Below are positions 6,525 through 23,998 of a DNA stretch of 64,000 nt, in pieces. The DNA lies in contig PGYK01000008.1 of NCBI GenBank assembly GCA_002839605.1, positions 124,001 through 188,000 of the forward strand, in the 5' to 3' direction. The notes beneath the pieces were generated by a model. That model saw only the letters and a list, made by a program, of their open reading frames with translations. It was not told where the DNA came from and did no database searches. Source of the DNA: Methanomicrobiales archaeon HGW-Methanomicrobiales-3. GTDB lineage: Archaea > Halobacteriota > Methanomicrobia > Methanomicrobiales > Methanospirillaceae. Both the position numbers and the translations under genes were made by a program. Every line of letters starts with the position of its first letter. Position 1 is the first letter of the stretch.

Positions 6525-6593
6525 CAATAAGCGCTTTTTAACACACATGGGCTCTGGAATATTCCAGTGTCCACTCTGAAAAGAGGTGAGAAC

Positions 6594-7166
6594 ATGAAAT
6601 CATTACACCATGATGAAGACGGGTTCACCGGTCTTGAGGCGGCGATTGTGCTCATCGCATTCGTTGTCGTAGCGGCCGTGTTCTCGTATGTCGTATTAGG
6701 CGCCGGGTTCTTTACAACCCAGAAGGCGCAGGAGTCGGTACACACCGCAGTCGGCCAGGCAACTTCCGCTGTTGAACTATCGGGACCTGTAATGGTACAG
6801 GCCGGGGCCGGTAACACTGTGTCCAATGCATCATTCTACTTACAGCTTGCTGCTGGTGGTGCTTCGGTTGATGTTAGCAAGATTGGTTACACGGTCAGTA
6901 CTTCCAAAAAGGTAGTGACCATTCAGGGAACTGACCCGCAGGTTATTGTTGTTTGGTTAAAAACAACTTCTCCTGGAAACCTCCTTGAGCCTCGTGAGAT
7001 GGTCCTTATCGATCTTGATCTTGCTGCCATGGGATTCTTGGAAGCTGACATGACCGTCAACGATAAGATTAATATTGAAGTCAAGCCCCCGGTAGGGTCA
7101 TCTCTTCCTATCTCAAGAAACCTTCCAGCGGCATTGAACGACGACATCTGGTATGAGGTCTATTAA
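6594..7166 (+). CDS. arlB1: Archaellin (major archaellum filament protein) 1
   Basis: This 190-residue preprotein has a class III (type IV pilin-like) signal: a short charged leader MKSLHHDEDG, then FTGLEAAIVLIAFVVVAAVF. Cleavage by the archaellin peptidase (FlaK/PibD) after Gly10 is expected. The hydrophobic helix of about 30 residues builds the filament core, and the rest is the outer beta domain. I chose ATG 6594 because AGAGGTGAG lies just upstream; an in-frame TTG-type start further up would spoil the leader. The next archaellin begins 11 bp after the stop. The peptidase gene is not in this window. Confidence 0.95.
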   Translation: MKSLHHDEDGFTGLEAAIVLIAFVVVAAVFSYVVLGAGFFTTQKAQESVHTAVGQATSAVELSGPVMVQAGAGNTVSNASFYLQLAAGGASVDVSKIGYTVSTSKKVVTIQGTDPQVIVVWLKTTSPGNLLEPREMVLIDLDLAAMGFLEADMTVNDKINIEVKPPVGSSLPISRNLPAALNDDIWYEVY

Positions 7167-7177
7167 GGAGGGTGAAA

Positions 7178-7804
7178 ATGATGAAGAACATTTACTCAGA
7201 AGATGCATTCACTGGCCTTGAAGCTGCGATTGTCCTTATTGCCTTCGTGGTTGTTGCGGCCGTGTTCTCGTATGTCGTATTAGGCGCCGGGTTCTTCACG
7301 ACCCAGACCGCACAGGCAACCGTCCACACGGGCGTTGCCCAGGCAAGCTCAAGCCTTGAAGTTGTCGGGAACGTAATGGGTATCTCAAATGAAGGTGATC
7401 AACTCTCGTATGCCAATATCAGTGTTGCACTGACTGCGGGTGGAACTGCGATGGATCTCGACCAGATGGTTGTCTCGTACACAGATAACAATGGTGGAAG
7501 AAATCCTAATGTGAATGCGACACCTGGTCTTGGTTGCGCTGCATTAACATTAGGCCTCGATGAAGATGTTGCAGCAGCAGCGGATACACAATGGTGTGTT
7601 GCTCAGAAGATCAATGACAGGAATCCCGCATCGCCAAACAACCTGCTTGAACTGAATGAGATCTGGGTTATTGCAATTCAGACTCCCGATTCCGCTACTG
7701 TGAACACGAAAATCACTTTCAATATGCAGCCCTCCGTTGGAGCAGTTCTTCCTATCACACGGACTCTTCCAGGCGGATTAAACAAAGTACAGGGAATCTA
7801 CTAA
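7178..7804 (+). CDS. arlB2: Archaellin 2
   Basis: The product has 208 residues from ATG 7178, preceded by GGAGGG at 7167-7172; a GTG at 7172 would lie inside that ribosome-binding site. The N-terminal helix FTGLEAAIVLIAFVVVAAVF is identical to that of archaellin 1, but the leader is different and ends in SEDA, so the residue before the cleavage site is Ala instead of Gly. The outer domain diverges strongly and carries two Cys residues (near GCAALTLG and QWCVAQ) that archaellin 1 lacks. It is probably a second filament subunit, possibly minor or assembled in a distinct zone. Confidence 0.93.
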   Translation: MMKNIYSEDAFTGLEAAIVLIAFVVVAAVFSYVVLGAGFFTTQTAQATVHTGVAQASSSLEVVGNVMGISNEGDQLSYANISVALTAGGTAMDLDQMVVSYTDNNGGRNPNVNATPGLGCAALTLGLDEDVAAAADTQWCVAQKINDRNPASPNNLLELNEIWVIAIQTPDSATVNTKITFNMQPSVGAVLPITRTLPGGLNKVQGIY

Positions 7805-7991: not shown

Positions 7992-8930
7992 ATGGCGGTT
8001 AACCAGTCGCAGGTCGATCACATCATCACCGCCGCATCAGAAGATGATCCGGAAGTGAAGCTCCAGAATCTGGAGCGCGAGGTCGACCTCATCAAGACAT
8101 CCATCAAACGGCTCCTCATGGATATACGGGAGCGGATGAATGAACTGGAAAACCCGTTTACTCTCGCTGCAACCGGTGCCACTGCCGGCGTACCAGCACC
8201 TGCCGGTCCTGCATATGATATTGAAGGGGACATCGGCGACGCGAAAAAATCCGCACTCGAAGCCCGCGAGGCTGCTCTTGATGCCCGCGAATCGCAGATG
8301 GATGCGACCAGGGCAAAGATGGAGACGGAAGGGAAAAAAGATGTTGCAGAGAAGAAACCTGAACCCCCCTCCCCTCAGCAGGAAGAGCGGCGGGCAATGG
8401 ATGAGGAGATGCTCACCCTTTTAAAATCCCAGATGGTTGTTCCCCAAAAGAGTACACCTGTACCTGCTGCACCGCCCCAGACTCCCACAAGCGAGAAACT
8501 CCGGCTCCAGAAGGTGTACAAACTCTTCAAATGGACCAACCAGTCCGTGCGAAAGTTCGGACATGACCGGCTGGAGATCATGCTCGATTCTTACCGGGCG
8601 ATGGGGTACATCACCAAGGAATCGACTGACGAGATCCGGGAGATCTCTCGGCTGATGCCGGCAAACCTTGGTGAGGAACACGAAGTCGGCCCGGACGAAT
8701 TCGTTGCCGAGCTCTATGCCCTCAACCGGATTCTTGCTCCCAATGATACATCGCTTGACCGGGATATGATCGAGGTCATGATGGAGCAGCGCCAGTCAGA
8801 GCCCGGATCATCAGAAAAAATATCTGAAGAGAGTGTCGATCTCTCAAGCCTTTCGCGGAGCGAGAGAAAGTCTTCAGCCCGGAAAAATGAGAAAGATGAA
8901 GAGTGGATGAACCTGCCCGACCGGATATGA
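7992..8930 (+). CDS. arlCE: Archaellum cytoplasmic protein ArlC/D/E (FlaC/D/E type)
   Basis: This 312-residue protein has an N-terminal coiled coil (LQNLEREVDLIKTSIKRLL), a low-complexity Ala/Glu/Lys linker, and a C-terminal domain (about 180-260) with WTNQSVRKFGHDRLEIMLD, the hallmark of the FlaD/E domain. In other euryarchaea the FlaC and FlaD/E proteins form the cytosolic ring below the motor and receive the chemotaxis signal through CheF. Here one fused gene replaces the two or three separate genes of Methanococcus. The linker length and the C-terminal charged tail are unusual but conserved domains are intact. Confidence 0.85.
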   Translation: MAVNQSQVDHIITAASEDDPEVKLQNLEREVDLIKTSIKRLLMDIRERMNELENPFTLAATGATAGVPAPAGPAYDIEGDIGDAKKSALEAREAALDARESQMDATRAKMETEGKKDVAEKKPEPPSPQQEERRAMDEEMLTLLKSQMVVPQKSTPVPAAPPQTPTSEKLRLQKVYKLFKWTNQSVRKFGHDRLEIMLDSYRAMGYITKESTDEIREISRLMPANLGEEHEVGPDEFVAELYALNRILAPNDTSLDRDMIEVMMEQRQSEPGSSEKISEESVDLSSLSRSERKSSARKNEKDEEWMNLPDRI

Positions 8931-8933
8931 TCA

Positions 8934-9407
8934 ATGTCTGCTGAGACATTCACCACCGCGATGTTTCTGATAACTGCCATCATAGCTGCGGGTGTCCTTG
9001 TCAACGCAGTGTTTCCGATAGTTTACACCATGGCCGGAACGTTCTCTTCCGCTTCGCACGAATCCGACCAACGGCTCCGCACGGATTTCAAGATCATCGC
9101 AACCTATGCAAGCGGGACAAACGGACAGATCTGGCTGAAGAATGTCGGGAGTACCCGGATTCCTGCCTCGGAGGTTGTCAGGTCGGATGTATTCTTCGGG
9201 GCTGTCGGAGATTTCGACCATCTCATGTATGATGCCGGCTGGACTGCAGAACTGAGCGACATCAACGCCAACAACTACTGGGACTCCGGCGAAACCCTCA
9301 AAGTATCGGTTGTGGCCACGAAACCAGTCTCTTCGGGAAATGTCGTCTACTTCCAGTTCGTTCTCCCGAACGGTGTGTGGAGATCGATAGAATTTACTGC
9401 GAGCTGA
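8934..9407 (+). CDS. arlG: Archaellum stator-associated protein ArlG
   Basis: This 157-residue protein has one N-terminal transmembrane helix (about residues 8-32) and an extracytoplasmic beta-sandwich of the archaellin-like FlaF/FlaG fold. The RLRTDFKIIATYA segment and the position two to three bases after arlCE match FlaG. ArlG caps ArlF filaments and helps to anchor the motor stator in the pseudoperiplasm. The two genes FlaF and FlaG are similar, so the G/F assignment rests on the helix and the strand after it. Confidence 0.8.
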   Translation: MSAETFTTAMFLITAIIAAGVLVNAVFPIVYTMAGTFSSASHESDQRLRTDFKIIATYASGTNGQIWLKNVGSTRIPASEVVRSDVFFGAVGDFDHLMYDAGWTAELSDINANNYWDSGETLKVSVVATKPVSSGNVVYFQFVLPNGVWRSIEFTAS

Positions 9408-9413
9408 TATCCG

Positions 9414-9902
9414 ATGGCTGTTGCTGAAATCATCGGGGCTGCCATCGGCGTCCTTCTCCTGGTCGTGGTTGCCTATATCCTTGTCGGCAGTACGTTAACG
9501 ACAGCTGAAGTTGTAGTTGCCGCTCAAAACGATCTCACCCTGCAGCACGAACAGCGGCTGCGCACCAGCCTTACTATCACGAGCGAAATTCCGCCCGATG
9601 ATTTTGCGTTTAACTTCAGCGTGAAGAATACCGGAAGTGAGATTATTTCCAACTTTGCGCACATGGATATCCTGACGAGTGATGGTGCCGAATTGGGTTA
9701 TACGGCCTATACCTACCAGAAAGAGGGGATGCCCGGTCCCGGGTACTGGTCCGTAACCCGCATTGAGAACGACTACCTCCACCCAAACTCTTTAGACCCG
9801 GGTGAGTCCATGTGGTGTATGGTAACATTCTCGGGAAATCCGCCGATATGGTTCCAGGTAACCACGGCTAATGGCGTATCTGCCTCGGCATACCTAATTT
9901 GA
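9414..9902 (+). CDS. arlF: Archaellum stator protein ArlF
   Basis: This 162-residue protein has an N-terminal membrane helix (about 5-25), the segment QNDLTLQHEQRLRTSLTITS typical of FlaF, and then a beta-sandwich domain. ArlF binds the S-layer and acts as static part of the rotary motor. It starts 6 bp after arlG and ends 22 bp before arlH, inside one operon. No processing leader is evident. Confidence 0.82.
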   Translation: MAVAEIIGAAIGVLLLVVVAYILVGSTLTTAEVVVAAQNDLTLQHEQRLRTSLTITSEIPPDDFAFNFSVKNTGSEIISNFAHMDILTSDGAELGYTAYTYQKEGMPGPGYWSVTRIENDYLHPNSLDPGESMWCMVTFSGNPPIWFQVTTANGVSASAYLI

Positions 9903-9924: not shown

Positions 9925-10656
9925 ATGGCAAACATTTCTGATCTGATGGGTGGCGAGGACCGGCAGATCATCTCGACTGGCAATAGCGAGCTTGACAAGA
10001 AGATAGCCGATGGCCTTCCCCTCGAATCCCTGACCCTGATCGAAGGGGAGAACGATACCGGTAAAAGCGTGCTCACCCAGCAGATCATGTGGGGCGCGAT
10101 GAAGCAGGGTTTATCCGTTGACCTTTTTACCACCGAGAGCACCAGCAAGAGTTTCATCAAGCAGATGGAGTCGATGAGCCTTGACATCTCCGAATATTTT
10201 GCCTGGGGCTATATCAAGGTCTTTCCGCTGCACGTTGTCGGGTTTGAGTGGAAGAAAGAGGAGATGGCAGGTCTTCTCTCCCAGCTCATTGCACATATCC
10301 AGAAAAGCAAGTCCCAGGTAATTGTCGTTGATTCATTGACGCTTTTTACGGAGTATGCTGAGACGGATTCTATCCTGACATTCTTCACCAACTGCAAATC
10401 CCTTGTCGATCACGGGAAAACCATTCTTGTAACCCTCCACACGTACGCGTTTGAGGAAGACACCCTTGTCCGGATACGATCCATCTCTGACGCACACCTG
10501 AACATGAAAAAAGCCCTTGTCGGGGATAAATATGTCATGGTCATGGAGGTGAACAAGGTCCGGGGAGCGCGGAAGACGACTGGAAACCTTGTCAGTTTCG
10601 AAGTCCACCCGGGATATGGTATGAAAGTCATCCCCATGAGCTTTGCGAGGGTCTGA
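9925..10656 (+). CDS. arlH: Archaellum ATP-binding protein ArlH
   Basis: This 243-residue RecA/KaiC-like protein has Walker A GENDTGKS at residues 41-48 and a Walker B-type strand QVIVVDSLTLF. ArlH binds ATP and interacts with ArlI to assemble and switch the motor at the cytoplasmic membrane. AAAGGAG precedes the ATG at a good distance. Its TGA ends one base before the arlI start. Confidence 0.95.
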   Translation: MANISDLMGGEDRQIISTGNSELDKKIADGLPLESLTLIEGENDTGKSVLTQQIMWGAMKQGLSVDLFTTESTSKSFIKQMESMSLDISEYFAWGYIKVFPLHVVGFEWKKEEMAGLLSQLIAHIQKSKSQVIVVDSLTLFTEYAETDSILTFFTNCKSLVDHGKTILVTLHTYAFEEDTLVRIRSISDAHLNMKKALVGDKYVMVMEVNKVRGARKTTGNLVSFEVHPGYGMKVIPMSFARV

Positions 10657-10657
10657 T

Positions 10658-12526
10658 ATGAGTTCGCCCTCAATGGCGGTCAACCTCCCCTTCAAGCCCG
10701 AAGTACTTGACACCACCATTGATTTTTATTCAGATATCGAGTCAAGCGCCCTTTTCAAGATGCTCCCGGCAAATGCCAAGGAGTACGTCAAGGCAAGCCC
10801 CCACCTTCTCGAATACCTCCATGTTTTTCCGGTCAACACCTACGGCATCCCGCTCTTCCTCTCCGAGCTGAAAAAAGACCTCCGGACAATGAAGAGCCCG
10901 AACATCATCTACCCGGTCAACGAGACCACCTTTGTCCATATCCTCCCGGACCCGGATGATGTCCGGAATTATTACATCCCGATCGAGCCCTCATTCCTCC
11001 ACAGCGTCAACCAGATGCTCCCGGTCATCGAGACCAAGCTGATCGATATCATCGATGGCCTTGAAGAGGATCCGATAAGCGACAAGGAACGGGCGGAGGT
11101 CATCAAGAAGATGCTCGCCTCCGTTGCTGTTATCCGGCCAAAAGGTATGGACATCTCCACGCTGACCGGAACCTCGGGCGGACAGCAGGACCTCAAATCA
11201 AAGATCACCACGTTCCTGAACACGGATTTTTCCGCAAAAGACAAGATGAAGAAGGTCAAGAGCAAGCACCAGATTCCCATGACGCCCGATGGCAAGGTCA
11301 TCCTGACTGATGAGGAATACCGGGCCATCGAGTATCTTCTCATCCGCGACAAGATTGATATGGGCGTCTTAAAACCGTTCCTCTCCGACCCGTATATCGA
11401 AGATATCTCCTGCGACGGGATCGGGCCGATCTTTATCGAGCACAAGATCTTCAAGGGCCTCAAATCCGTTATCGAATTCAAGGTGTCCAGCGAACTCGAT
11501 GAGTTTGTGGTCAACATGGCAGAACGGATCAAGCGCCCGATCACCTACCGGAACCCGGTTGTTGATGCAACCCTGCTCGACGGTTCCCGTATCAATATCG
11601 TGTACGGCACGGCAATCTCCCGGCACGGCAGTAACTTCACCATCCGTAAAGTAAACGAGGTTCCGTTATCCATTCTCAACATTGTCGAGAGTAATGGGAT
11701 CGATTATATGGCTGCGGCATATCTCTGGATCTGCGTGGAGTACGGGATGTCGCTCTTCGTCTCCGGCGAAACCGCAAGCGGCAAGACCACGCTCCTCAAC
11801 GCAATCACCACATTCATTCCCCCAGAGAACAAGATCGTGACCATTGAAGACACCCCCGAACTCAATGTTCCGCACCGCAACTGGATCCGGGAAGTTGCGC
11901 TTGCCAAGGGTAAGGGCGAGGGTGGCGGTGCTGCGGGGGAAGTATCCATGTTCGATCTCCTCAAAGCTGCCCTGCGTCAGCGCCCGAACCAGATCCTTGT
12001 CGGTGAGATCCGGGGGGTCGAGGGATCTGTCGCCTTTGGTGCCATGCAGACCGGTCACCCCGTGATGAGCACGTTCCACGCGGCATCGGTTGAGAAACTG
12101 ATCCAGCGTCTTTGCGGGGACCCTATCAACATTCCCCGGACCTATGTCGATAATCTCAACCTCGTCGTCATCCAGAGCGCGGTCAAGCGCCCCGACGGGC
12201 AACTGGTACGGCGGATGATCAGCGCCAACGAGCTGGTCGGGTTCAACCCGGAAACCCAGGGGTTCACCTTTGTGCAGATGTTCACATGGGAACCGGTGTC
12301 CGACACATTCGTCTGGACCGGTAAGGGCAGTTCCTTCCTCCTCGAGAACAAGATTGCAACCATGCTCGGGATGCCCGACAGTAAAAAATCGGAGATTTAT
12401 CTTGAAGTGGAAAAACGGGCCAAGATTCTCGAGCGGTTGCACAAGGCGGGATATACGAAATTCTGGGACCTGTTCCACATGATGACCAAGATCAAGAAAC
12501 AGGGGCTTCTCACCATTGGCTCCTGA
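10658..12526 (+). CDS. arlI: Archaellum assembly and rotation ATPase ArlI
   Basis: The product has 622 residues from ATG 10658, with GCGAGGG about 8 bp upstream; the longer frame would start at a TTG inside arlH. It is a type II/IV secretion superfamily ATPase with Walker A GETASGKTT near residue 370, Asp/His boxes, and Walker B QILVGEIRG near 447. The N-terminal domain of about 250 residues includes the membrane-interacting part. ArlI hexamers drive both filament assembly and rotation. Length is slightly above the usual 550, owing to the N-terminus. Confidence 0.97.
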   Translation: MSSPSMAVNLPFKPEVLDTTIDFYSDIESSALFKMLPANAKEYVKASPHLLEYLHVFPVNTYGIPLFLSELKKDLRTMKSPNIIYPVNETTFVHILPDPDDVRNYYIPIEPSFLHSVNQMLPVIETKLIDIIDGLEEDPISDKERAEVIKKMLASVAVIRPKGMDISTLTGTSGGQQDLKSKITTFLNTDFSAKDKMKKVKSKHQIPMTPDGKVILTDEEYRAIEYLLIRDKIDMGVLKPFLSDPYIEDISCDGIGPIFIEHKIFKGLKSVIEFKVSSELDEFVVNMAERIKRPITYRNPVVDATLLDGSRINIVYGTAISRHGSNFTIRKVNEVPLSILNIVESNGIDYMAAAYLWICVEYGMSLFVSGETASGKTTLLNAITTFIPPENKIVTIEDTPELNVPHRNWIREVALAKGKGEGGGAAGEVSMFDLLKAALRQRPNQILVGEIRGVEGSVAFGAMQTGHPVMSTFHAASVEKLIQRLCGDPINIPRTYVDNLNLVVIQSAVKRPDGQLVRRMISANELVGFNPETQGFTFVQMFTWEPVSDTFVWTGKGSSFLLENKIATMLGMPDSKKSEIYLEVEKRAKILERLHKAGYTKFWDLFHMMTKIKKQGLLTIGS

Positions 12527-12527
12527 T

Positions 12528-14147
12528 ATGGCTGAAATCACGGATGGTGCGGCAAAGAAGCCCGCGGCGAGAGAGGTTCCTTTCGCGTCAACTATCGAAG
12601 GTATCAAAGAGAAGATCGCGCAGATTTCCGAAGATAAAAAAATGGGTCCGGATCTCCTCTTCACCAATACCTACATGGCATCCCTTGCCATTGCAGATGC
12701 TTCCCGGCCCGAGATCTTTTCCTATACCGCAAACCGGAAAGAGTATATATCCTCCAAATATCTCACCAAAGTGGACACGTACGTCCAGAAATGGGGATTT
12801 AGTTATTCTGAATCCCTGAGCATCGTTGCCGATCGCGTCAACAACGCGATCTTAAAAAGCATGCTTGCCCGGTATGCAAATGCGATTGAATCGGGCGTTC
12901 CCGATGACGATTTTTTGAAAAATGAACTCTCGACCATCCGGAGCGTATACCGGAGCCAGGTTGAGCAGGGAATCGAGCTGACAAAACAGTGGGGCGATGC
13001 TTACGTTGCAATGCTCCTGTCAGCCACGGTCATCGCAGTCACCCTCATGATTTCCATTGCGATCTATTCCCCCACAGGAATGGAGAGTACCCTGAATATG
13101 GCGTATGGGATCGTGCTCGTTATCTGTGTTGGCGGCAATGTTCTCATGTACCAGTCTGTCCCCTATGATGCCAAGTCCCATGGCCTTACCGGGCGAGCCT
13201 CCAAAGAACAACAGACCATTCATTCCATGGAACGGCTCATCGTCCCCCTGACCATTGGAGCCGTGGTCATTATGGGGTTATTGGGGGTAAGCGCCGGCCT
13301 GATTTATCTTTTGATCGGCATCCTCATGGCCCCCCTGGGTCTTATCGGGTTTATCGATGATGCAAACATTACCGTGAGAGATACGGACTTTTCTACGTTT
13401 ATCAGGAGTTTTGGCGCTATCATGGGGGGTCAGGGAACAACAGCAGTCTATGCCCTGGCAACCATTGATCGGAAATCCCTCACGGCTCTCGAGCCGCTTA
13501 TCAATGCCGTCTACTCCCAGATGAACCTCGGGCTGGATTCCCGACAGATCTGGGACAAATTCATTGCAGATTCGGGCAGCAACCTCATCAACAAGTACCT
13601 CAACATCTATCTCGACACCATCACGCTTGGCGGACCCCCGGAACCTATCGGGACCGTTGTGGGGTCATCAATTCTTGAACAGACACTCCTGCGGGAGAAG
13701 AAAGACATGCATGCACGGAGTTTCATCATCCTGCTCGTTCCCATGCACTGTGCGATGGCCGGGATCCTCATCGCCCTGTACCGCATCATGGTTGTTCTTA
13801 CGGGATCAGTTGGCACCATGATGGAGCAGTTCCAGCAACAATCAGCCTCTGCCTCGGGAAGCATTGCTGGCGGGGGAATGTCTGCGGGCGGTGCACTGGG
13901 GGGTCTTACTATGTTCAGCAATTTTCCTGAACAGGAGATGGGGACTTTTGTTGTGATCTGCCTTACCATTATCACGGTATCCAACATCATCGCAGCCCGG
14001 GTTGTGGGCGGAGGAGATCGGTATATGTTTTATTTCTATACAGCGATATTCTGTATATTGACCGGCATGATGCTTCTCGTCACCCCAATCGGTGTCGGGC
14101 TGTTCTTCAGTCCTGAAGGGCTCCAGAACATGGGGACAACTGCTTAA
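12528..14147 (+). CDS. arlJ: Archaellum platform membrane protein ArlJ
   Basis: The product has 539 residues from ATG 12528, with only one base between the arlI stop and this start. It has two GspF/PilC-like cytosolic domains and about nine hydrophobic helices in clusters (about residues 165-215, 240-285, 405-430, 465-535). ArlJ is the membrane platform above ArlI. The cytosolic loop has the conserved FIRSFGAIMGGQGTTAVYAL segment. The stop is followed 22 bp later by the next gene of the same operon. Confidence 0.95.
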   Translation: MAEITDGAAKKPAAREVPFASTIEGIKEKIAQISEDKKMGPDLLFTNTYMASLAIADASRPEIFSYTANRKEYISSKYLTKVDTYVQKWGFSYSESLSIVADRVNNAILKSMLARYANAIESGVPDDDFLKNELSTIRSVYRSQVEQGIELTKQWGDAYVAMLLSATVIAVTLMISIAIYSPTGMESTLNMAYGIVLVICVGGNVLMYQSVPYDAKSHGLTGRASKEQQTIHSMERLIVPLTIGAVVIMGLLGVSAGLIYLLIGILMAPLGLIGFIDDANITVRDTDFSTFIRSFGAIMGGQGTTAVYALATIDRKSLTALEPLINAVYSQMNLGLDSRQIWDKFIADSGSNLINKYLNIYLDTITLGGPPEPIGTVVGSSILEQTLLREKKDMHARSFIILLVPMHCAMAGILIALYRIMVVLTGSVGTMMEQFQQQSASASGSIAGGGMSAGGALGGLTMFSNFPEQEMGTFVVICLTIITVSNIIAARVVGGGDRYMFYFYTAIFCILTGMMLLVTPIGVGLFFSPEGLQNMGTTA

Positions 14148-14169
14148 AAAATTGTGTGAGGTTATGGTT

Positions 14170-15477
14170 ATGGATATCCGGGTACGCAGGTTTTTGATGT
14201 TCTGCACCATCCTTACCGTGGGGCTCCTCCTCTTATTCATCGATGTTACGTTAATCCAGCTCCTCCTCCTCCTCGTTCTCCTGGCAGTTGTCCTCCCGTT
14301 CCTGCTCGGGCTCGTGACCATAGCCGAAGTCCGGGCTGCGTTTGAGAACTTTAAGGAGAACCGGCTCAAAAAGATCGGGATCCTCAAAAAACTCGACGAG
14401 ATCAAACTGTTCGAGAAGAAAGGAGGAAAAACGCCGGAGCCTCCCACAGCAAAGGCTCCAGCTAAACCGGCAGCCGCCCCGGCAAAGCCCGCTGCCCCGG
14501 CCGGGAAAATGCCGTTTGCTTCCCAGATCGGGTCCCTTGTAGCCTCGATACAATCACTTGGTACGATCATTACGGAACGGACCCGGCGTGAACGGAAGGT
14601 TGCCGACATCAATAAGATGCTGGATTCAACAATCAGCGAGAAAGTTGAGAAGAGTGCGGTTCCTGCAAAATCCCCGGCCGGGGATACTCCGCTCCCCGCT
14701 CCGGGTGGTGCAGGATCCGGATCCTCTGCGGATGCCGATCCATTCCTCTCTCTTTCCGGGGATGAGTTTGATTCCGGCCTCCTGGACGGGCTGGATGAGG
14801 GGGATCTTGCTATGCCCGGCATGCCGGGTGAAGAAGAGGTGCCCACCGGAGCCGGACTATCCGATGATATGTCCCTTCCCGAGCCCGAACTCTCGATGCC
14901 GGATCTTGAGATGGACGCGGCTGCTGCCGACATCCTAAAAGCGAATGCGGGGGATGAGGAACCTGACGGGTTCAGCGGGCTTGAAACCGCTGGCGACAGC
15001 GATACGGATTTTGGCGATCTTGACAACATCAGTCTCGATGATGTCGACCTTGATGCAGATCTCGATTTCGAGGATTCCGAAAGCACGGGTGAGGAACCTG
15101 CCCCGGAAAGTCCACAACCTGCGACTGCCCCTGCACCTGTGGAGGAGGGGGAACCCTCCGGTGCAGTCAAGACCACCTGGATCCCATCTGACGCACCCGG
15201 GGATGCAAACATGGGAGATGACCAGATCGGGATGCAGTCCGATATGGCAGCCTTTGCGAGTTCGAGCGGGGGAACCGATGAAGATCTGCTCAGCTCCATT
15301 GCATCCGATGTCAAACATGTTGCAAAAGAGAAGGACTTAAGTCTCCTGCGGGAACTCAAGGATTTCAAGGCCCCGGCAGAGCAGATCGAAAAAGAGCTCA
15401 CCGACATGTACCAGCGGATGAGTGTTGTCCAGAAACCAAAAGACAGAACCGATCCCGCTACCAATGAAATAAAATAA
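14170..15477 (+). CDS. Two-helix membrane protein with acidic tail, between arlJ and cheF
   Basis: This 435-residue protein from ATG 14170 has GTGAGG eight bases upstream. Visible parts are: two very hydrophobic helices (about residues 6-24 and 29-50), a basic helix after them, an Ala/Pro/Lys linker, a predicted helix with SIQSLGTIITERTRRE, a long Asp/Glu/Ser-rich disordered region (about 180-345), and a C-terminal helical segment with SSIASDVKHVAKEKDLSLL. I know no named family. Its place inside the archaellum-chemotaxis operon suggests a membrane scaffold connecting the motor and the CheF/CheY output; that is inference. A long open frame exists on the opposite strand but is a shadow. Confidence 0.8.
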   Translation: MDIRVRRFLMFCTILTVGLLLLFIDVTLIQLLLLLVLLAVVLPFLLGLVTIAEVRAAFENFKENRLKKIGILKKLDEIKLFEKKGGKTPEPPTAKAPAKPAAAPAKPAAPAGKMPFASQIGSLVASIQSLGTIITERTRRERKVADINKMLDSTISEKVEKSAVPAKSPAGDTPLPAPGGAGSGSSADADPFLSLSGDEFDSGLLDGLDEGDLAMPGMPGEEEVPTGAGLSDDMSLPEPELSMPDLEMDAAAADILKANAGDEEPDGFSGLETAGDSDTDFGDLDNISLDDVDLDADLDFEDSESTGEEPAPESPQPATAPAPVEEGEPSGAVKTTWIPSDAPGDANMGDDQIGMQSDMAAFASSSGGTDEDLLSSIASDVKHVAKEKDLSLLRELKDFKAPAEQIEKELTDMYQRMSVVQKPKDRTDPATNEIK

Positions 15478-15540: not shown

Positions 15541-16350
15541 ATGAAAGAAGTTCCGGTCAAGATCGAGCACAACAAACAATGGGTTGTCGTCAAGCTGGGC
15601 GTTGGCGAAGACCGGCTGGTCATCCCGGCACCGGTCAACAAGGAGATCCTTTTCAAGACCGTGCTGGATGTTGCCGAACGTAAGAATGTCCTCATCATCA
15701 CTGCCAAAACCGATGCCGAGGCAACCTACAAGATCCTCTCGGTCGACAAAGTCCTCTCGATCTTAAAGAAGATGATCCTTGCCTCCTGCAACGCCTACCG
15801 GCTGATGGCATACTTCATGTCCCCTGCCATCAAAGGCGGTGTGATGGTCAAGGATGCCCAGTGGGAGAAGGGAAGCGTTGTCGTCGTTCACACCGGCATC
15901 TGGTTTGTCAGCGCCACAAAACAGATCTGTGTGCCGACAAATGATGTCGCCGCAATCGAGCTCACCAAGCGGGAAGTGCAGGGAAAACCCACCGATGTTG
16001 TCAAGATTGACCATCTCGAGAACAACGAAGTGGCATCCAGTCTTGTCTTATGCCCGCTCTCCACCCTGCAGGTTCTCTACAATTTCTTAAAAGAGACCAC
16101 CAAAAGCATGGATATGAAAGGAACCGAGCTTGACGGTGTCGACCAGCAGGTTGCCATGCTCATCTATTCCGGCATGGACTCCCATGCCATCGAGAACATG
16201 CTCAACATCCCGCATAAACAGCTTGAGGTCATCTATGACAAGATCCTCAAACTCGGTCTTGCCGAAGTCACCATCATAAGGCGGGAAGTCCAGCTGACCA
16301 CAAAAGGGGTTCGCTATATCTCTGATGCCACAAAATCCCAAACAAACTGA
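15541..16350 (+). CDS. cheF: Archaeal chemotaxis adaptor CheF
   Basis: This 269-residue protein belongs to the DUF439 family, defined by Halobacterium CheF1/CheF2. It has an N-terminal beta-rich domain and a C-terminal winged-helix region (MLIYSGMDSHAIENMLNIP onward). CheF binds phosphorylated CheY and the archaellum protein ArlCE and so carries the switching signal to the motor. It starts 63 bp after the preceding gene; GAGGAT lies just before the ATG. Its position next to arl genes and cheY is the standard one. Confidence 0.93.
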   Translation: MKEVPVKIEHNKQWVVVKLGVGEDRLVIPAPVNKEILFKTVLDVAERKNVLIITAKTDAEATYKILSVDKVLSILKKMILASCNAYRLMAYFMSPAIKGGVMVKDAQWEKGSVVVVHTGIWFVSATKQICVPTNDVAAIELTKREVQGKPTDVVKIDHLENNEVASSLVLCPLSTLQVLYNFLKETTKSMDMKGTELDGVDQQVAMLIYSGMDSHAIENMLNIPHKQLEVIYDKILKLGLAEVTIIRREVQLTTKGVRYISDATKSQTN

Positions 16351-16416: not shown

Positions 16417-16779
16417 ATGGGAAAGATTCTGATCGTGGATGATACCCTCTTTATGCGAACCCTTCTGAAGAATATCCTGTTCTCAGGGGGACACACCATC
16501 GCCGGTGAGGCAGGAGACGGGGAAGAGGCGATAGCCAAGTACAAGGAACTGAAGCCGGATCTCGTCACCATGGACGTTGTGATGCCCAAGATGAACGGCA
16601 TCGAAGCACTCAAAGGCATAAAAGCCCTGGATCCGGCAGCCCGGGTTGTTATGTGCACGGCTGTCGGCCAGGAACAGATGGTAAAACTGGCCATCAAGTC
16701 CGGTGCCAAAGGGTACATTGTCAAACCCTTCCAGGCTCCAAAAGTGCTCGAAGAAGTCAAGAACGTTCTGGCATCCTGA
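16417..16779 (+). CDS. cheY: Chemotaxis response regulator CheY
   Basis: This stand-alone receiver domain of 120 residues has the acidic pocket VDD at 8-9, phospho-acceptor Asp53 (TMDVVMP), Thr/Ala switch position and Lys in YIVKPF. Phosphorylated by CheA, it acts through CheF on the archaellum. It is followed 5 bp later by cheB, whose N-terminal receiver is very similar, so the two may have arisen by duplication. Confidence 0.97.
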   Translation: MGKILIVDDTLFMRTLLKNILFSGGHTIAGEAGDGEEAIAKYKELKPDLVTMDVVMPKMNGIEALKGIKALDPAARVVMCTAVGQEQMVKLAIKSGAKGYIVKPFQAPKVLEEVKNVLAS

Positions 16780-16784
16780 CCATT

Positions 16785-17825
16785 ATGGTAAAACTCCTCA
16801 TTGTGGATGATTCCGTTTTTATGCGGACGGTCATCCGGGATATCGTTTCAAAAGATCCGACCATCGAGGTAGTGGGAACGGCATCAAACGGGATCGAAGC
16901 GCTTGAAAAGATTGCAGCTCTTGAACCCGATATCATTACGCTCGATATCGAGATGCCCCGGATGACCGGAATCCAGGTACTTGAGGAGCTTCGGAAGGTA
17001 AAAAAACGCCCCCGGGTCATGATGCTCAGCTCGCTCACCTCTAAAGATGCCGAGATGACCACCCAGGCTATCCGTCTCGGTGCTGATGATTTCATGCTCA
17101 AGCCAAAGGATATCCCCCACGTCAGGGAGATCGGTGCCGAACTGGTATCCAAAATCCGGCACCTTGTCACACTTCCGGTCAGAAAACCCGTCATTCACCG
17201 GACGGAAAAACTCCAGGCTGCAAAGCGGGTTGTGCTCATCGGTTCCTCTGCCGGTGGCCCGCCGATGCTCGACACCCTGCTTGCAGCAATCCCCGGAGAT
17301 CTGCCGGCCGGCATTGTGGTGACCCAGCACATGCCCCCCGGCTTCACCGCCCCCCTTGCAGAACGGTTCAACCGCATTGCAACCATGCAGGTGAAAGAGA
17401 CCGAGAACGGGGATCTGGTTGAAACCGGGAAGATTCTCCTCTCAAAAGCCGGCATCCACACGATCGTAAGCGGGGTTCTGGATGAAAAAAATACCAAAAA
17501 CGGCCGTATTGTCCATTCCAATGCTCCCCCAATCCACGGGGTACGGCCGGCTGTTGACAAAACGTATGAATCCGCCGCCCAGGTGTTTGGCAAAAACATT
17601 GTCTCGGTAACCCTGAGCGGTATGGGAAACGATGCCGGAGAAGGAGCTCTTGCCATTAAGCAGGCAGGGGGCATCAACCTGGTTTGTGAAGAGAAGGACT
17701 GCCTTGTCTATGGCATGGCACGATCGGTCATTTCCAAAAATGCACAGGACAAGATCCTTCCCTTGAACAAACTTGCAGAAGAGATCGAAAGAGTAGTGCT
17801 CCAGATGGAGGCAGGCAATGTCTGA
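16785..17825 (+). CDS. cheB: Chemotaxis protein-glutamate methylesterase CheB
   Basis: The product has 346 residues from ATG 16785; the frame is open further upstream into cheY but has no better start. It has an N-terminal receiver with phospho-acceptor Asp54 and a C-terminal methylesterase with the catalytic triad visible as SSAGGP (Ser), VTQHMPPGF (His) and GMGNDAGEG (Asp). It demethylates and deamidates receptor glutamates for adaptation. The last 8 bp overlap cheA. No cheR, cheW or receptor gene is in the window, so those partners must be elsewhere. Confidence 0.97.
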   Translation: MVKLLIVDDSVFMRTVIRDIVSKDPTIEVVGTASNGIEALEKIAALEPDIITLDIEMPRMTGIQVLEELRKVKKRPRVMMLSSLTSKDAEMTTQAIRLGADDFMLKPKDIPHVREIGAELVSKIRHLVTLPVRKPVIHRTEKLQAAKRVVLIGSSAGGPPMLDTLLAAIPGDLPAGIVVTQHMPPGFTAPLAERFNRIATMQVKETENGDLVETGKILLSKAGIHTIVSGVLDEKNTKNGRIVHSNAPPIHGVRPAVDKTYESAAQVFGKNIVSVTLSGMGNDAGEGALAIKQAGGINLVCEEKDCLVYGMARSVISKNAQDKILPLNKLAEEIERVVLQMEAGNV

Positions 17826-19755
17826 ATTTGAGGCGTATCGGGGACTATTTGTCGCGGAGTCACGGGAGAACCACGAGAACCTGGTCAAGAACCTCCTGAT
17901 TTTGGAAAAAGGTTCCGACCAGAATGCCATTGATGAGATCTTCCGCTCATGCCATACCCTGAAAGGGGCTTCGGCATCCATGGGCTATGCCGAGATGGAG
18001 CGGCTGTGCCATGCGATGGAGGATGTATTCCAGCTCGTCCGGAGCGGAACTGCGGAGATCACCCAGGATCTGGGTGACCTCCTGCTTGCCTGCTCCGATC
18101 TTCTTGAACAGATGATTGACGATGTTGAGGGCGGGGGAGACACCTCTTCTTTAAACCCGGATGATCAGGTCAATTCTCTTAAAGAATGGATCGGGCAGCG
18201 GGGAGGAAAACCGGAGAAGAAAGGTGCAGCACCTGCCGCTCCTGCCCTGGAATCCCCAGCATCTCCTGTAAGTGAACCCCTCCCGCTTGAAGGCAATGTT
18301 CCCGAATTTGAGATCACGGTCACGGTTGCAAGCGAATGCATGATGAAAGATGTCCGGGCAATGCTTGCAATCGGGAATCTTGAATCCCTTGGCACCATCC
18401 TCACCATCAACCCGTCAAAGGAAGCCATCGATGAGGGGAATTTCGATGGCGTTCTCAAGCTCAAAATTGCAAGCGATGCCGGTGAAGAAGCACTCAAAAC
18501 CGCTGCGTCCGGAACAGAGATTGCAGCTGTTGACGTAAAAGCAGTGGTGAAACAGGAAGCCCCTGCCGTAAAGAAACCCGTGGATAACGACAAAAAACCC
18601 GCGGCTGCTGCTGACAAGAGCCGCGAGATCAAGAACCTCCGGGTTGATATTACCCAGCTGGACCACATCATGAACCTGGTCGAAGACCTGGTCATCAACC
18701 GCGGGCGTCTCAAGCAGATCTCCGAACAGCACAAGATCAAGGAGCTCGGGGAAGCTATCGGAATGGTTGAGCGGTCGGTCTCCGAGCTCCAGAACCTGAT
18801 GATGAACATCCGCATGATCCCCTTAAACCAGATCTTCAACCGCCTGCCACGGGTTGTCCGCGATGTTGCCATCTATGACAAAAAGGAGGTTGAATTTGTC
18901 ATCGAAGGTGGGGAAACCGAGCTAGACCGGAGCGTGATGGACGGCCTCAACGATCCGCTCCTGCACCTCATCAGGAACGCCGTCAACCACGGGATCGAGT
19001 CGCCCGATGAAAGGGAAAAAGCCGGAAAGCCCCGGAAAGGGTTTGTCAAACTCTCGGCACACCGTGACCGGGACAATGTCATCATCGAGCTTGTCGATGA
19101 CGGTGCCGGTGTCAATGTTGAGAAGGTCAAGGCAAAAGCGGTTGAGCGGGGACTGGTAACAAAAGAAGTAGCTGACACGTACACGACCGAGCAGGCAGTC
19201 GATCTCCTCTTCCAGCCGGGCTTCTCCACGGCTGACAAGATCTCTGATATCAGTGGCCGTGGAGTTGGTCTCGATGTTGTCAAGCGTTCCATTGAGTCGC
19301 TCAAAGGCACGATAAGGGTCGAGACCACGCCGGGGAAAGGCAGCCGTTTCGAGCTCCTTCTTCCCCCCACGATGGCAATTGTCGATGTCATGATCGTCCG
19401 GATCAATGGACGGCGCCTGGGCATTCCCATCAGCAGTATTGTGGAAGTTGCAAATTTCAAACGCGACACCACCCATTTCATCGGTGAGGGTGAAGCCGTT
19501 CTCTTAAGGGATGAAGTGATCCAGCTCATGTGGCTCAACGATATGGTGGGCGAATCGGAGGTCTGCGAGATCTTAATCGTGGTCCAGTACGAGAAACGCA
19601 AATGCTGTATCCCGGTGGACCTTGTCGAAGGCAAGCAGGAAGTCGTGGTCAAACCATTGAGCAAGCTCATCGGCAACACCCGGGGCGTAAGCGGGATCAC
19701 CATTTTAGGAGACGGGGAAGTCGTACCGGTTCTCGACGTAAACACCATTGTTTAG
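17818..19755 (+). CDS. cheA: Chemotaxis histidine kinase CheA
   Basis: This 645-residue kinase shows the canonical order. The Hpt domain has phosphorylated His46 in SCHTLKGAS. A CheY-binding P2-like region lies around 160-240, followed by an Ala/Lys linker, the dimerisation helices around 265-330, HATPase boxes (N: LIRNAVNHGIE; G1: DDGAGVN; G2: ISGRGVGLDVVK), and the C-terminal CheW-like domain from about 510. It phosphorylates CheY and CheB in response to receptors. It overlaps cheB by 8 bp and is followed by cheC 10 bp later. Confidence 0.97.
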   Translation: MSEFEAYRGLFVAESRENHENLVKNLLILEKGSDQNAIDEIFRSCHTLKGASASMGYAEMERLCHAMEDVFQLVRSGTAEITQDLGDLLLACSDLLEQMIDDVEGGGDTSSLNPDDQVNSLKEWIGQRGGKPEKKGAAPAAPALESPASPVSEPLPLEGNVPEFEITVTVASECMMKDVRAMLAIGNLESLGTILTINPSKEAIDEGNFDGVLKLKIASDAGEEALKTAASGTEIAAVDVKAVVKQEAPAVKKPVDNDKKPAAAADKSREIKNLRVDITQLDHIMNLVEDLVINRGRLKQISEQHKIKELGEAIGMVERSVSELQNLMMNIRMIPLNQIFNRLPRVVRDVAIYDKKEVEFVIEGGETELDRSVMDGLNDPLLHLIRNAVNHGIESPDEREKAGKPRKGFVKLSAHRDRDNVIIELVDDGAGVNVEKVKAKAVERGLVTKEVADTYTTEQAVDLLFQPGFSTADKISDISGRGVGLDVVKRSIESLKGTIRVETTPGKGSRFELLLPPTMAIVDVMIVRINGRRLGIPISSIVEVANFKRDTTHFIGEGEAVLLRDEVIQLMWLNDMVGESEVCEILIVVQYEKRKCCIPVDLVEGKQEVVVKPLSKLIGNTRGVSGITILGDGEVVPVLDVNTIV

Positions 19756-19765
19756 GAGACAGATT

Positions 19766-20377
19766 ATGAAACTATCAACTGTTCAGGCAGACGCGATCCA
19801 GGAACTCGGGAACATCGGGGCGGCACATGCGGCAACCACGCTCTCCCAGATGCTCGGGAGTGCAGTCGAGATGAGTGTTCCGGCCATCAAGGCCATCGAT
19901 ATCTCGGAACTCGGATCGTATATGGGCGAAGAGGCTGCTGCCATGGTAGCATTTGAACTCCAGGGAGAGATCGCACACGGGGGATATATCGTGTTTTACA
20001 TATCCCGCGAATCAGCTATCCGCCTCACCAACACCATGCTCGGTCTCACCGATATGAACCGGCCCATGAACGAGATGGACGAGAGTGCACTCCTTGAAGT
20101 GGGCAACATCATGGTCTCGGCATTCCTTGACGCCACGGCGGAACTGCTGGGATTCATCATGCTCCCGTCTCCGCCGGCCCTCACCATTGACATGGCCCAT
20201 GCTGCGATGTCATCCCTGGTTGCCCAGATGGGTGAGGAGATCGATGAGGTGCTTCTCTTCTCTACCGAGCTGGTCTGCGAGGAGCATAAGATCGACAGCG
20301 ACATCATTATGATGCCGGAGAATACAACACTGGCACGCATCGTGGAACTGATGGAAAATATGATGAAAGGTATCTGA
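19766..20377 (+). CDS. cheC: CheY-P phosphatase CheC
   Basis: This 203-residue protein from ATG 19766 has GGAG eight bases upstream. Both phosphatase signatures are present: QELGNIGAAHAAT near residue 11 and LLEVGNIMVSAFL near residue 111, each with the required Glu and Asn. CheC dephosphorylates CheY-P and is stimulated by CheD. The neighbour downstream is cheD, as in most archaea and in Bacillus. Confidence 0.95.
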   Translation: MKLSTVQADAIQELGNIGAAHAATTLSQMLGSAVEMSVPAIKAIDISELGSYMGEEAAAMVAFELQGEIAHGGYIVFYISRESAIRLTNTMLGLTDMNRPMNEMDESALLEVGNIMVSAFLDATAELLGFIMLPSPPALTIDMAHAAMSSLVAQMGEEIDEVLLFSTELVCEEHKIDSDIIMMPENTTLARIVELMENMMKGI

Positions 20378-20396
20378 CTCCCTGTTTGTGAAACCT

Positions 20397-20888
20397 ATGG
20401 CCGACGCACTCAAACCTGACGAACAAACGGCGATGATAGGTATTGGCGAGTACCGGGTAGGTTCATTTCCGATGATGACCATCGGTCTTGGGTCCTGCAT
20501 CGGGCTCACGCTCTATGACGAGAGTTCAAAAATCGGTGCCATGGTTCATATCATGCTCCCGGACAGTGCCGGAAGACAGGATCGTCCGGGAAAATATGCA
20601 GATACCGCTATACCCCTGCTGCTAAAAGAACTCGGCATCAAGGGCGCAAAGACCAAATCGCTCATCGCCAAGATGGCCGGCGGCGCATGCATGTTCGAGT
20701 ACTTCGGCACCAATCTCAATATCGGTGAGCGGAACGCAGAACGGGTCAGGGCGATTCTTAAAGAGCAGGGGATCCCCTTAAAAAAGGAGGATGTCGGCGG
20801 CAAGGTCGGCCGGTCCGTCACGTTCTTCCCGGCAAACGGCGGGAAAATTACCATTCGGCGGGCGGACGGGACCACCGGTGAACTCTAA
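20397..20888 (+). CDS. cheD: Chemoreceptor glutamine deamidase CheD
   Basis: This 163-residue protein from ATG 20397 (a GTG nine bases upstream is possible) has the deamidase Cys in GLGSCIGLTLYD and the His in AMVHIMLP, followed by AGGACMF. It deamidates receptor glutamines and binds CheC. The last 11 bp overlap the start of the downstream propeller gene, which begins with GTG at 20878. Confidence 0.95.
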   Translation: MADALKPDEQTAMIGIGEYRVGSFPMMTIGLGSCIGLTLYDESSKIGAMVHIMLPDSAGRQDRPGKYADTAIPLLLKELGIKGAKTKSLIAKMAGGACMFEYFGTNLNIGERNAERVRAILKEQGIPLKKEDVGGKVGRSVTFFPANGGKITIRRADGTTGEL

Positions 20889-22134
20889 CCCGTTCTCTCT
20901 TCTCATTCTCATCCTTCTCATCCTGTCACCGGCAGCTGTCGCTCAACCGGATGGAACGGCCTTGTCCCCCACCGACCCGGTCGGGAAAACCACCCCCGTC
21001 CCTTTCACCATCACGCTCTTCATCCCCTCCTCCAACATGATCCATTCCGACCAGGTACTTGACCAGATCAATACTCTTGACGGGAAGGGTGTGCTCTTTG
21101 GAACCTCCTTTGGGCTTTCGGAGTATAATGGCACCTGGTCAACCCGGCATATCAACCGCGACAACATATCTGAGGGGCTCATGGACGAGTATATCACGTC
21201 CATAGAGTTTGATTATGAAGGAGATCTCTGGATCGGATATTCCGGGGGAATCCAGATTTACAATGGGATCTTTTACCAGACCCTCCGGGATCAGCAGCTC
21301 TTCAAGGACCCGCGGATCCAGGATCTCCAGCGATGGCACGATGATATGTGGGTTGCAACCGGAAATGCCGGCCTCCACCGTTTTCGTAACGGGGCCTGGA
21401 CCTGGTTCCAGCCCATGACCAAAAATGGCCCGGAATTTTATGAAGTCCGGGAGATGGTGATGGACACCCACAGTGACTCCCTGCTCCTTGCCACGGCAGA
21501 TAACGGGCTCTGGATTGTCAAATCCCCTGATGATCCGGTGGTGTTTGAACAGATCGCACCAAAACGGGGAACCTATGGCCAGATGACCCATGTAAAGCGG
21601 GACCCGATGGGCGGCGTCTATTTCTTTAACGACACAACGGTGGTGCATTACTCACCGGATGCGGGTTTTGTTCCCGTCCTGACTGCCCGTGACCTGACCT
21701 TCGCAGACATCGAAATCAACGATCTCTCGGTCGATCGCTATGGCACCATCTATATTGCAACCGATGATGCGATCTTCATCTGGAAAAACGATCAGGTATA
21801 CCGCCGTCTCAGCCGGTTTGAAGGGATCGGGACGTCCGAAGTGGTACGAACCGTAACTGTTGATTCCCAAAACCGGGTCTGGTTCTCAACTGCCGGCCAT
21901 GTCGGGTATTACCATGAAGAACCGGACGGGCAAAGTCCAATCCTGGTAGAGACCACCGTGCCGGAGATAACCCCCGATTTACCGGTGTTCACCCCGACTC
22001 CCCCTCCGGTAGAAACGCCTGCCGTGATAACGGATGAGGATGCAGGATCCCGTACCGGGGGGCTTGCCCCGGTTCTCGATCCCATCATCCACGCAATCCA
22101 GGCGATTCTTGCAAAACTGGGCATTGTGGTTTAA
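20878..22134 (+). CDS. Secreted beta-propeller protein coupled to cheD
   Basis: This 418-residue protein from GTG 20878 lies inside the end of cheD. The N-terminus is a clear signal peptide (SLLILILLILSPAAVA, cleavage near residue 21). The body has repeated blades of the two-component-regulator propeller type, seen as DLWIGYSGGIQIYNG, DMWVATGNAGLHRF, LLLATADNGLWIV, TIYIATDDAIFIW and RVWFSTAGHVGYY. A Pro/Thr linker and a short hydrophobic C-terminal helix (about 395-415) follow and may anchor it. Such propellers are usually sensor parts of hybrid kinases. A free-standing one translated with the chemotaxis operon could be an extracellular ligand-binding or archaellum-associated protein; that is inference. 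Confidence 0.8.
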   Translation: MNSNPFSLLILILLILSPAAVAQPDGTALSPTDPVGKTTPVPFTITLFIPSSNMIHSDQVLDQINTLDGKGVLFGTSFGLSEYNGTWSTRHINRDNISEGLMDEYITSIEFDYEGDLWIGYSGGIQIYNGIFYQTLRDQQLFKDPRIQDLQRWHDDMWVATGNAGLHRFRNGAWTWFQPMTKNGPEFYEVREMVMDTHSDSLLLATADNGLWIVKSPDDPVVFEQIAPKRGTYGQMTHVKRDPMGGVYFFNDTTVVHYSPDAGFVPVLTARDLTFADIEINDLSVDRYGTIYIATDDAIFIWKNDQVYRRLSRFEGIGTSEVVRTVTVDSQNRVWFSTAGHVGYYHEEPDGQSPILVETTVPEITPDLPVFTPTPPPVETPAVITDEDAGSRTGGLAPVLDPIIHAIQAILAKLGIVV

Positions 22135-22807: not shown

Positions 22808-23998
22808 TCACCGTTTCTTAAGTTCCACGAAGCAGAACTGTTCGATCGCATCCAGCAATGCTTTTTTTGCCCGCCTCACCCGCACGTCCTCACTTGAGGA
22901 AAAATCGGCTGCTATGTACCGGAGCACGGTTGCAAAATACTGCAGGTCTGAAAATTCCCGCTCGAAATCAGCCAGCCGGTTGAACGCTTCCTTAGGCTCG
23001 CGGTTGAGGAGCTCGAACGAGAAATCGAAAAGCTCGATTATCTGTGCCGGCATCCCTTTTGAGAGCGCCAGTTTCCGGAAACTGTGGTAGGTCATCTTCT
23101 TTGTTGTCAGGAGGGAGAGCTTGAGCCCGAGATAGACTGGTTCAAGTTCATTGGGGTACTGCTTGATGAGCTGGTTGACAATCCCTGCCGCCCCGCCGGC
23201 ATCACGGTTTTCCAGCTTGTAGTAATACATCTCCCGCAGGAAGGTGATGTCCGTGTAGAAATGCTCCGAGCCGATATCGAGGAGGCGTTTCCGCATCACC
23301 GAATCGTTGGTCAGGGCAGCGTTTTTCAACCCGATCTCCAAAAACCACTTCTCGCTCGGGAACCATTCAAGCCCGATCAGGATCATCTGCCAGAAGATCT
23401 TGTCAAGAAATGCCGGATCATCGATTTCCAGCTGCCGGATCTGGCCAACGCCCGGTTTTATCCGGGCTAGGTTGATCATCAGTTCCCGGGCAAGAAGTTC
23501 CATCTCGCCCGGACGGTGGTTCCGGATCGATTCATCGTCTTTCTTGAACTCCCGGAGGGAGAGGGTATAATAGCAGAAAGCAACCGCGGTGCCCAGTTTG
23601 GCATCAAGAGTGGCATATTTTTTCAAGTACTCAAGGGCATGGACATAGTCCCCGACTTTGAGGAGCTTTAACCCGACAACAATGTTGATACCCACTTCCG
23701 CATTCTTCCGTTTCTTGAAACGGATGGCATTGGTCATCACCCGTTTGACAAAATCAAAGTCATCGATATTTTTACTGGTGTCGAGCACCTTGAAGGTGAT
23801 GCTGTCCACGAACTCGTCATGGGCTTCATCGGAGAGGTTGGGAAAAGAGTTCTCAAGGGCAGAGATGACATACCCGTAAAAGACCGGAAGGTTTGCATCG
23901 ACTTTTACGGTATTGCGTTCGATATAGCCGGAAAAATCCCTCTGCAACAGGTGCAGCTTGTCGTACACTATCGCGTCCGAAAGCTTCTCCTCCCGCAT
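22808..23998 (-). CDS. Alpha-helical repeat (TPR-like) protein, unknown function
   Basis: This 396-residue protein is almost entirely helical and soluble, without signal peptide. Helix pairs such as GLKLLKVGDYVHALEYLKKY and later QLIKQYPNELEPVYLGLKL suggest a TPR-like solenoid, but I cannot assign a known family. It is co-directional with the ABCE1 gene 47 bp upstream, so it may be co-expressed with it. Its codon use looks like its neighbours. Confidence 0.75.
   Translation of the reverse strand: MREEKLSDAIVYDKLHLLQRDFSGYIERNTVKVDANLPVFYGYVISALENSFPNLSDEAHDEFVDSITFKVLDTSKNIDDFDFVKRVMTNAIRFKKRKNAEVGINIVVGLKLLKVGDYVHALEYLKKYATLDAKLGTAVAFCYYTLSLREFKKDDESIRNHRPGEMELLARELMINLARIKPGVGQIRQLEIDDPAFLDKIFWQMILIGLEWFPSEKWFLEIGLKNAALTNDSVMRKRLLDIGSEHFYTDITFLREMYYYKLENRDAGGAAGIVNQLIKQYPNELEPVYLGLKLSLLTTKKMTYHSFRKLALSKGMPAQIIELFDFSFELLNREPKEAFNRLADFEREFSDLQYFATVLRYIAADFSSSEDVRVRRAKKALLDAIEQFCFVELKKR

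Follow-up and report, generated by a model that had tools for sequence, protein, structure and literature searches.

Two types of archaellum gene cluster, arl1 and arl2 (fla1 and fla2), were defined by Desmond et al., and the loci of Methanospirillum, Methanosarcina and Archaeoglobus are of type 2 (PMC1914349). The ArlX protein of Thermoproteota has a single transmembrane (TM) helix and a ring-forming cytosolic part, which binds both ArlI and ArlH; the ArlC/D/E proteins have no TM helix (PMC8978795). Since ArlC/D/E have no membrane anchor, how the soluble motor ring of the euryarchaeal archaellum is held to the membrane is an open question. In the present study, we analyzed a window of 64,000 nucleotides from Methanomicrobiales archaeon HGW-Methanomicrobiales-3 (contig PGYK01000008.1, positions 124,001 to 188,000), in which an uncharacterized gene, hereafter gene X, lies within the archaellum locus as follows.

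7992-8930, + strand: arlCE-like switch protein gene, with a weak PF04659 match
8934-9407 and 9414-9902, + strand: arlF/G, two minor archaellin-like stator genes
9925-10656, + strand: arlH
10643/10658-12526, + strand: arlI
12528-14147, + strand: arlJ, arl2-type platform protein (NF004703, 682 bits, over the cut-off), directly 5' of gene X
14170-15477, + strand: gene X, encoding an arl2 archaellum protein of 435 aa with a membrane anchor
15541-16350, + strand: cheF (PF04283, 1.2e-12), directly 3' of gene X and heading the che block
16417-20888, + strand: cheY, cheB, cheA, cheC and cheD, which with cheF form the block missing after gene X in six relatives
20791-22134: two-component-propeller ORF (PF07494), 3' of cheD

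The profile matches of both neighbors confirm the position between arlJ and cheF given by the first-pass annotation of this DNA, and the end of arlJ is 22 nt from the start of gene X. Located 5' of the arl operon, at 6567-7804, are two genes for major archaellin-like proteins whose N-terminal stretches (FTGLEAAIVLIAFVVVAAVFSYVVLGAGFFTTQ) are nearly identical. The ATG of gene X at 14170 is preceded, 8 nt upstream, by GTGAGG (14156-14161), and the orthologs begin at the equivalent start (MKES-RR). In comparisons with three relatives, the changes are mostly at codon position 3 of the gene X frame (266 versus 123 and 98 in L002). Because the substitutions are concentrated at this position, the overlapping ORF of 540 aa on the minus strand (13842-15464) was rejected as spurious, and the ORF at 14170-15477 on the plus strand is a real coding gene.

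No Pfam or NCBIfam family matched gene X; weak Pfam matches (LapA_dom and others) were dismissed as hits to the hydrophobic N-terminus or to composition. Neither PF04659 (Arch_fla_DE) nor PF04283 (CheF) matched gene X, PF04659 was not among the families listed for 40 members, and the library profile searches gave no match to ArlX. A profile search of the PDB gave no credible solved relative, and a fold search with the low-confidence AlphaFold2 model (mean pLDDT 60) returned nothing. Thus, the search for an unrelated family that might account for the gene ended with no clear hit. A search of the literature on genes 3' of flaJ/arlJ, on arl2 and on ArlX returned no description of gene X; it may be an uncharacterized arCOG among the 191 listed in the T4P census (PMC4858521). 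It is a previously unnamed, uncharacterized protein of the arl2 archaellum locus, with the following predicted parts.

14191-14316, + strand: two TM helices (residues 8-26 and 31-49; hydropathy 2.5 and 3.2), a predicted hairpin with both ends cytoplasmic
14317-14643, + strand: residues 50-158 (net charge about +10), with a basic juxtamembrane segment and a long helix predicted at 117-158 (42 residues)
14587-14625, + strand: motif A (RERKVADINKMLD), KxxxIDxxLD-like, inside the 42-residue helix and present also in Archaeoglobales and Methanocella-like orthologs
14644-15249, + strand: residues 159-360, an acidic and disordered linker with 52 D/E versus 4 K/R (net charge -48)
14737-14793, + strand: motif B (DPFLSLSGDEFDSGLLDGL), inside the acidic linker, resembling hDxxLLxEM of Archaeoglobales and Methanosarcinaceae-like orthologs
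15256-15432, + strand: conserved C-terminal module (CTD; residues 363-421, about 50 residues), three short helices

The two membrane helices and the long acidic disordered region had been noticed in the first-pass annotation, and both were recovered here: AlphaFold2 agrees with hydropathy in placing TM helices (3-23 and 28-46, pLDDT 84-90), two TM helices are found in 38 of the 40 Methanomicrobiales orthologs, and most of the linker scores below pLDDT 60. A conserved C-terminal helix had also been proposed; the conservation stands, but a single helix does not, since the module has three (371-381, 391-397 and 403-421), with L392, R394, K397 and L410 nearly invariant. AlphaFold2 gave confident predictions only for the TM hairpin and the first juxtamembrane helix, together with part of the long helix and parts of the CTD. 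The CTD is the best conserved part of a fast-evolving protein whose sequence is overall little conserved.

On its predicted topology, gene X appears ArlX-like in architecture: like ArlX (FlaX) of Thermoproteota, it belongs to an arl2-type cluster and would have an N-terminal membrane anchor and a cytosolic remainder. The two were compared by description, and we do not claim identity. ArlX replaces ArlCDE, whereas gene X follows arlJ and coexists with an ArlCE-like protein; furthermore, ArlX has a coiled coil needed for its ring of ~30 nm, whereas gene X of the window has two TM helices and a long acidic linker. ArlC, ArlD and ArlE are likewise fast-evolving, cytoplasmic accessory proteins of euryarchaeal archaella, but gene X differs from them in its membrane anchor, in having no PF04659 match and in being a separate gene beside the ArlCE-like gene. 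In the bacterial type IV pilus and type II secretion systems, PilN and GspL are inner-membrane anchors that link the secretion ATPase to the platform, and may be analogs of gene X; however, no sequence or fold similarity was found, and gene X has no large extracytoplasmic domain.

We surveyed 135 Methanomicrobiales genomes with completeness of at least 90%, using the NF004703 cut-off for ArlJ. Gene X was found in 113 and ArlJ over the cut-off in 112, the 113th genome having an ArlJ split between contigs; the other genomes have no full arlJ, and no gene X was found in them. In all 40 loci read, which cover all six families, gene X is directly 3' of arlJ; its start is no more than about 60 nt from where the arlJ match ends, and cheF and cheY normally come next. 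Absence from the arl loci of close relatives, which would have spoken against the gene, was thus not what the survey found: gene X is a conserved protein, present in all of the Methanomicrobiales arl loci surveyed. In one locus (L042, genome G036, 10012-11748), an IS-like element with a transposase-like ORF of 388 aa and perfect terminal inverted repeats of 13 nt interrupts gene X, leaving the CTD as a separate ORF; a genome of the same genus (G110) has an intact gene X. In a single-contig genome with intact ArlJ (L069; G011:C1:1365965-1367202), gene X consists of two overlapping ORFs as a result of a frameshift, which could be either an assembly error or a real pseudogene. Two CheF-like genes in tandem follow gene X in L037 (G147; 1381-2911 relative to the end of arlJ).

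From the position between arlJ and cheF and from the predicted helices and acidic region, the first-pass annotation proposed a tether to CheF/CheY or to a cytoplasmic polar plate. In the chemotaxis version, the linker or the CTD would keep CheF, CheY-P or the chemoreceptor array close to the motor; cheF adjoins gene X in most Methanomicrobiales loci, and motif B (LSxDEFDxxLL) superficially resembles the EIDALL peptide of FliM/FliY that binds CheY-P (PMC9126983). We searched for CheF with PF04283 and the CheF of the window itself, and also for the CheW domain. No CheF was detected in six genomes (G003, G023, G120, G121, G037 and G052), all of which keep gene X beside arlJ, and no CheW domain was detected in four of them (G003, G023, G120 and G052), while G121 and G037 have CheW genes elsewhere in the genome. 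At these six loci the cheF-cheD block is absent, and gene X is followed by genes from beyond cheD (the propeller ORF at 20791, the ORF at 22808 or the ABC ATPase at 24046). Some of the CheF-less genomes are incomplete MAGs, yet the junctions are contiguous, and G121 is a single contig. In G118 the loss was only apparent, a Pfam miss, and a CheF with 73% identity is present. Furthermore, no cheF was found within the stretches read of the Methanosarcinaceae-like, Methanoliparum and Methanocella-like loci. CheF (DUF439), a folded adaptor of chemotaxis, occurs together with che genes, whereas its neighbor gene X persists without them, which argues against a tether to CheF/CheY. As a candidate FliM-like CheY-binding motif, motif B was set aside; it is kept in CheF-less Methanoregulaceae (G121, G003 and G023), and archaeal CheY-P binds CheF through a surface other than that for the FliM peptide (PMC9126983). 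Furthermore, haloarchaea use CheF, yet the genomes whose only clusters are arl1-like yielded no gene X. We therefore consider a chemotaxis tether very improbable. The propeller ORF (20791-22134 in the window) still adjoins gene X in some of the che-less genomes (L224 and L226).

As a proxy for the arl2-type motor, we used an ArlJ score over the NF004703 cut-off, and low-scoring ArlJ was taken as arl1-like. In the phylum sample, the CTD profile of gene X found a match in 52 of 56 genomes with arl2-type ArlJ versus none of 60 with only arl1-like ArlJ (Fisher p=1e-28, a value that overstates independence because the genomes are related). All four arl2 genomes without a profile match belong to one Methanosarcinaceae-like family (f8), and the three loci read each have a divergent gene at this place. 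Where a genome has both clusters, gene X or an X-like gene is at the high-scoring ArlJ (G178, G185, G228 and G309; loci L118, L119 and L201 were read). No such gene was found after arlJ in the arl1-type loci read (among L205-L220), which is consistent with an earlier remark that haloarchaea have no gene of this type at this place. Our results show that gene X tracks the arl2 motor, not chemotaxis; as it stands beside arl2 ArlJ and is kept after the loss of chemotaxis, it belongs to the motor rather than to a chemotaxis link. One arl1-like locus (L216, G209), in the family of the Archaeoglobales hits, has a HEAT-repeat-like gene and a CheF gene directly after arlJ; HEAT_PBS proteins have been reported only in haloarchaeal che regions (PMC2666748).

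The same distribution bears on the possibility that gene X is a polar-cap or positioning factor, which would join the motor to a cytoplasmic polar plate or recruit the cluster to the pole. A membrane anchor with a long acidic disordered region carrying short motifs would be typical of hubs or tethers, and tomograms resolved no connection between polar cap and motor (PMC8978795). However, polar caps have been reported in Thermococcales and Halobacteria, which are arl1-type groups, whereas gene X tracks arl2, and such a role seems unlikely to us.

Outside the order, arl loci were sought by a contig scan queried with an arlI alignment. Orthologs of gene X were found directly after arlJ in Archaeoglobales, Methanosarcinaceae-like, Methanocella-like and Methanoliparum loci (the first three labels come from named records where these overlap, and are otherwise inferred), except in L116, where the gene is between arlH and arlI, and in L109, where it lies some 650 nt farther downstream. 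They are 200-395 aa in length, with one TM helix and the CTD; an Archaeoglobales ortholog of 214 aa has the identical order of elements, but a single TM helix. By hhalign, the CTDs of Methanomicrobiales and of the outside ortholog groups match at 97-98% (E 1e-12 to 1e-14; CTD only, 98%, E 1.6e-14). Motif A scores significantly above shuffles in many Archaeoglobales and Methanocella-like members, and motif B is weak as a PSSM outside the order, although the alignment shows DxxLLxEMxTA. Genes of UBA203-type Methanosarcinales match the CTD at 87%, those downstream of arlJ in ANME-1 at 27%, higher than every shuffle, and one Methanosarcina type, taken alone, scores within the null.

Chloroflexota archaella are reported to be without CheF (PMC12488501). 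Among 34 bacterial arl loci, we picked by eye 20 in which the gene after arlJ has a similar C-terminal pattern; a CTD-only profile made from these found the gene in 7 of the 14 loci held out, at E values up to 2.4e-3 and with no hit to a reversed decoy, and a longer profile including the acidic tail found more, although part of that signal may be composition. The gene directly follows arlJ, and in loci with a relocated arlJ it follows arlI instead; thus, a bacterial family exists at the position equivalent to gene X. Homology between this family and the archaeal CTD is no more than suggestive. Alignment of the whole tails by hhalign gave 60% (E 9e-5), partly from composition, as the acidic linker is shared, and the CTD-only score of 15.7-17.4 is inside the null range (mean 8.9, maximum 18.0), so we make no claim of homology. 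In ANME-1, in some Methanosarcina and in many Chloroflexota loci, the arlJ-downstream genes have no TM anchor; if these are true relatives, anchoring is not the universal function. The arlJ-downstream gene of one Chloroflexota locus (L162, 11348-12273) is in two tandem copies, and five others (L173, L177, L182, L183 and L189) have two ArlI-like ATPases in tandem.

These positions might suit an assembly regulator, that is, a membrane-tethered modulator of ArlI/ArlH in the switch from filament assembly to rotation. Gene X comes where the H-I-J core ends, the X-like gene of Chloroflexota loci with a relocated arlJ comes after arlI, and the CTD, the best conserved part, is small enough for a docking module. 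However, no catalytic or regulatory domain was recognized in gene X, and this explanation is rather unlikely. Gene X might instead merely lie in the operon, as an unrelated passenger or as a diverged copy of ArlD/E or ArlX. This would fit the low overall conservation, and the ArlC/D/E families are known to diverge strongly (PMC4858521); the conserved position and the co-occurrence with arl2-type ArlJ, together with the ArlCE-like gene already present upstream (7992-8930) and the lack of a PF04659 match in gene X, make this improbable.

We favor the explanation that gene X probably encodes an unrecognized structural or assembly subunit of arl2-type archaellum motors, as its conservation, position, distribution, retention after the loss of chemotaxis genes and modeled architecture suggest. 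The N-terminal hairpin may anchor the protein in the membrane around the ArlJ platform, and the basic segment with the long helix may run along the membrane or mediate self-association. The acidic linker would be a flexible spacer carrying motifs A and B as short binding motifs, and the CTD may dock on a cytosolic part of the motor of arl2 loci, that is, ArlI, ArlH or the ArlC/D/E-type switch ring. Mirror-tree comparisons of the CTD with ArlCE, ArlF, ArlG, ArlH, ArlI, ArlJ, CheF and CheY gave weak correlations throughout and name no partner. Because gene X has a membrane anchor, which is missing from the euryarchaeal ring, we propose a scaffold that would secure the soluble motor ring to the membrane platform, the role proposed around ArlI/ArlH/ArlJ for ArlX in Thermoproteota.

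A wider possibility, which we offer tentatively and hold to be somewhat less than an even prospect, is that every arl2 archaellum outside Thermoproteota, in archaea and in recipient bacteria, needs an accessory gene beyond ArlC/D/E and ArlF/G. Its product would be an acidic protein that evolves fast and often has a membrane anchor. The gene would come next after arlJ (or after arlI in loci with a relocated arlJ), and the short C-terminal module of the protein would clamp the ATPase or the switch ring to the membrane platform.

Descriptions of the archaellum present a small machine whose list of parts is short and settled. A component that accompanies arl2-type ArlJ in the phylum, and that escaped notice because of its fast sequence evolution, would change that list. 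Gene X is a concrete target for studies of the methanogen motor, and it may explain part of what moved with archaella to bacteria.
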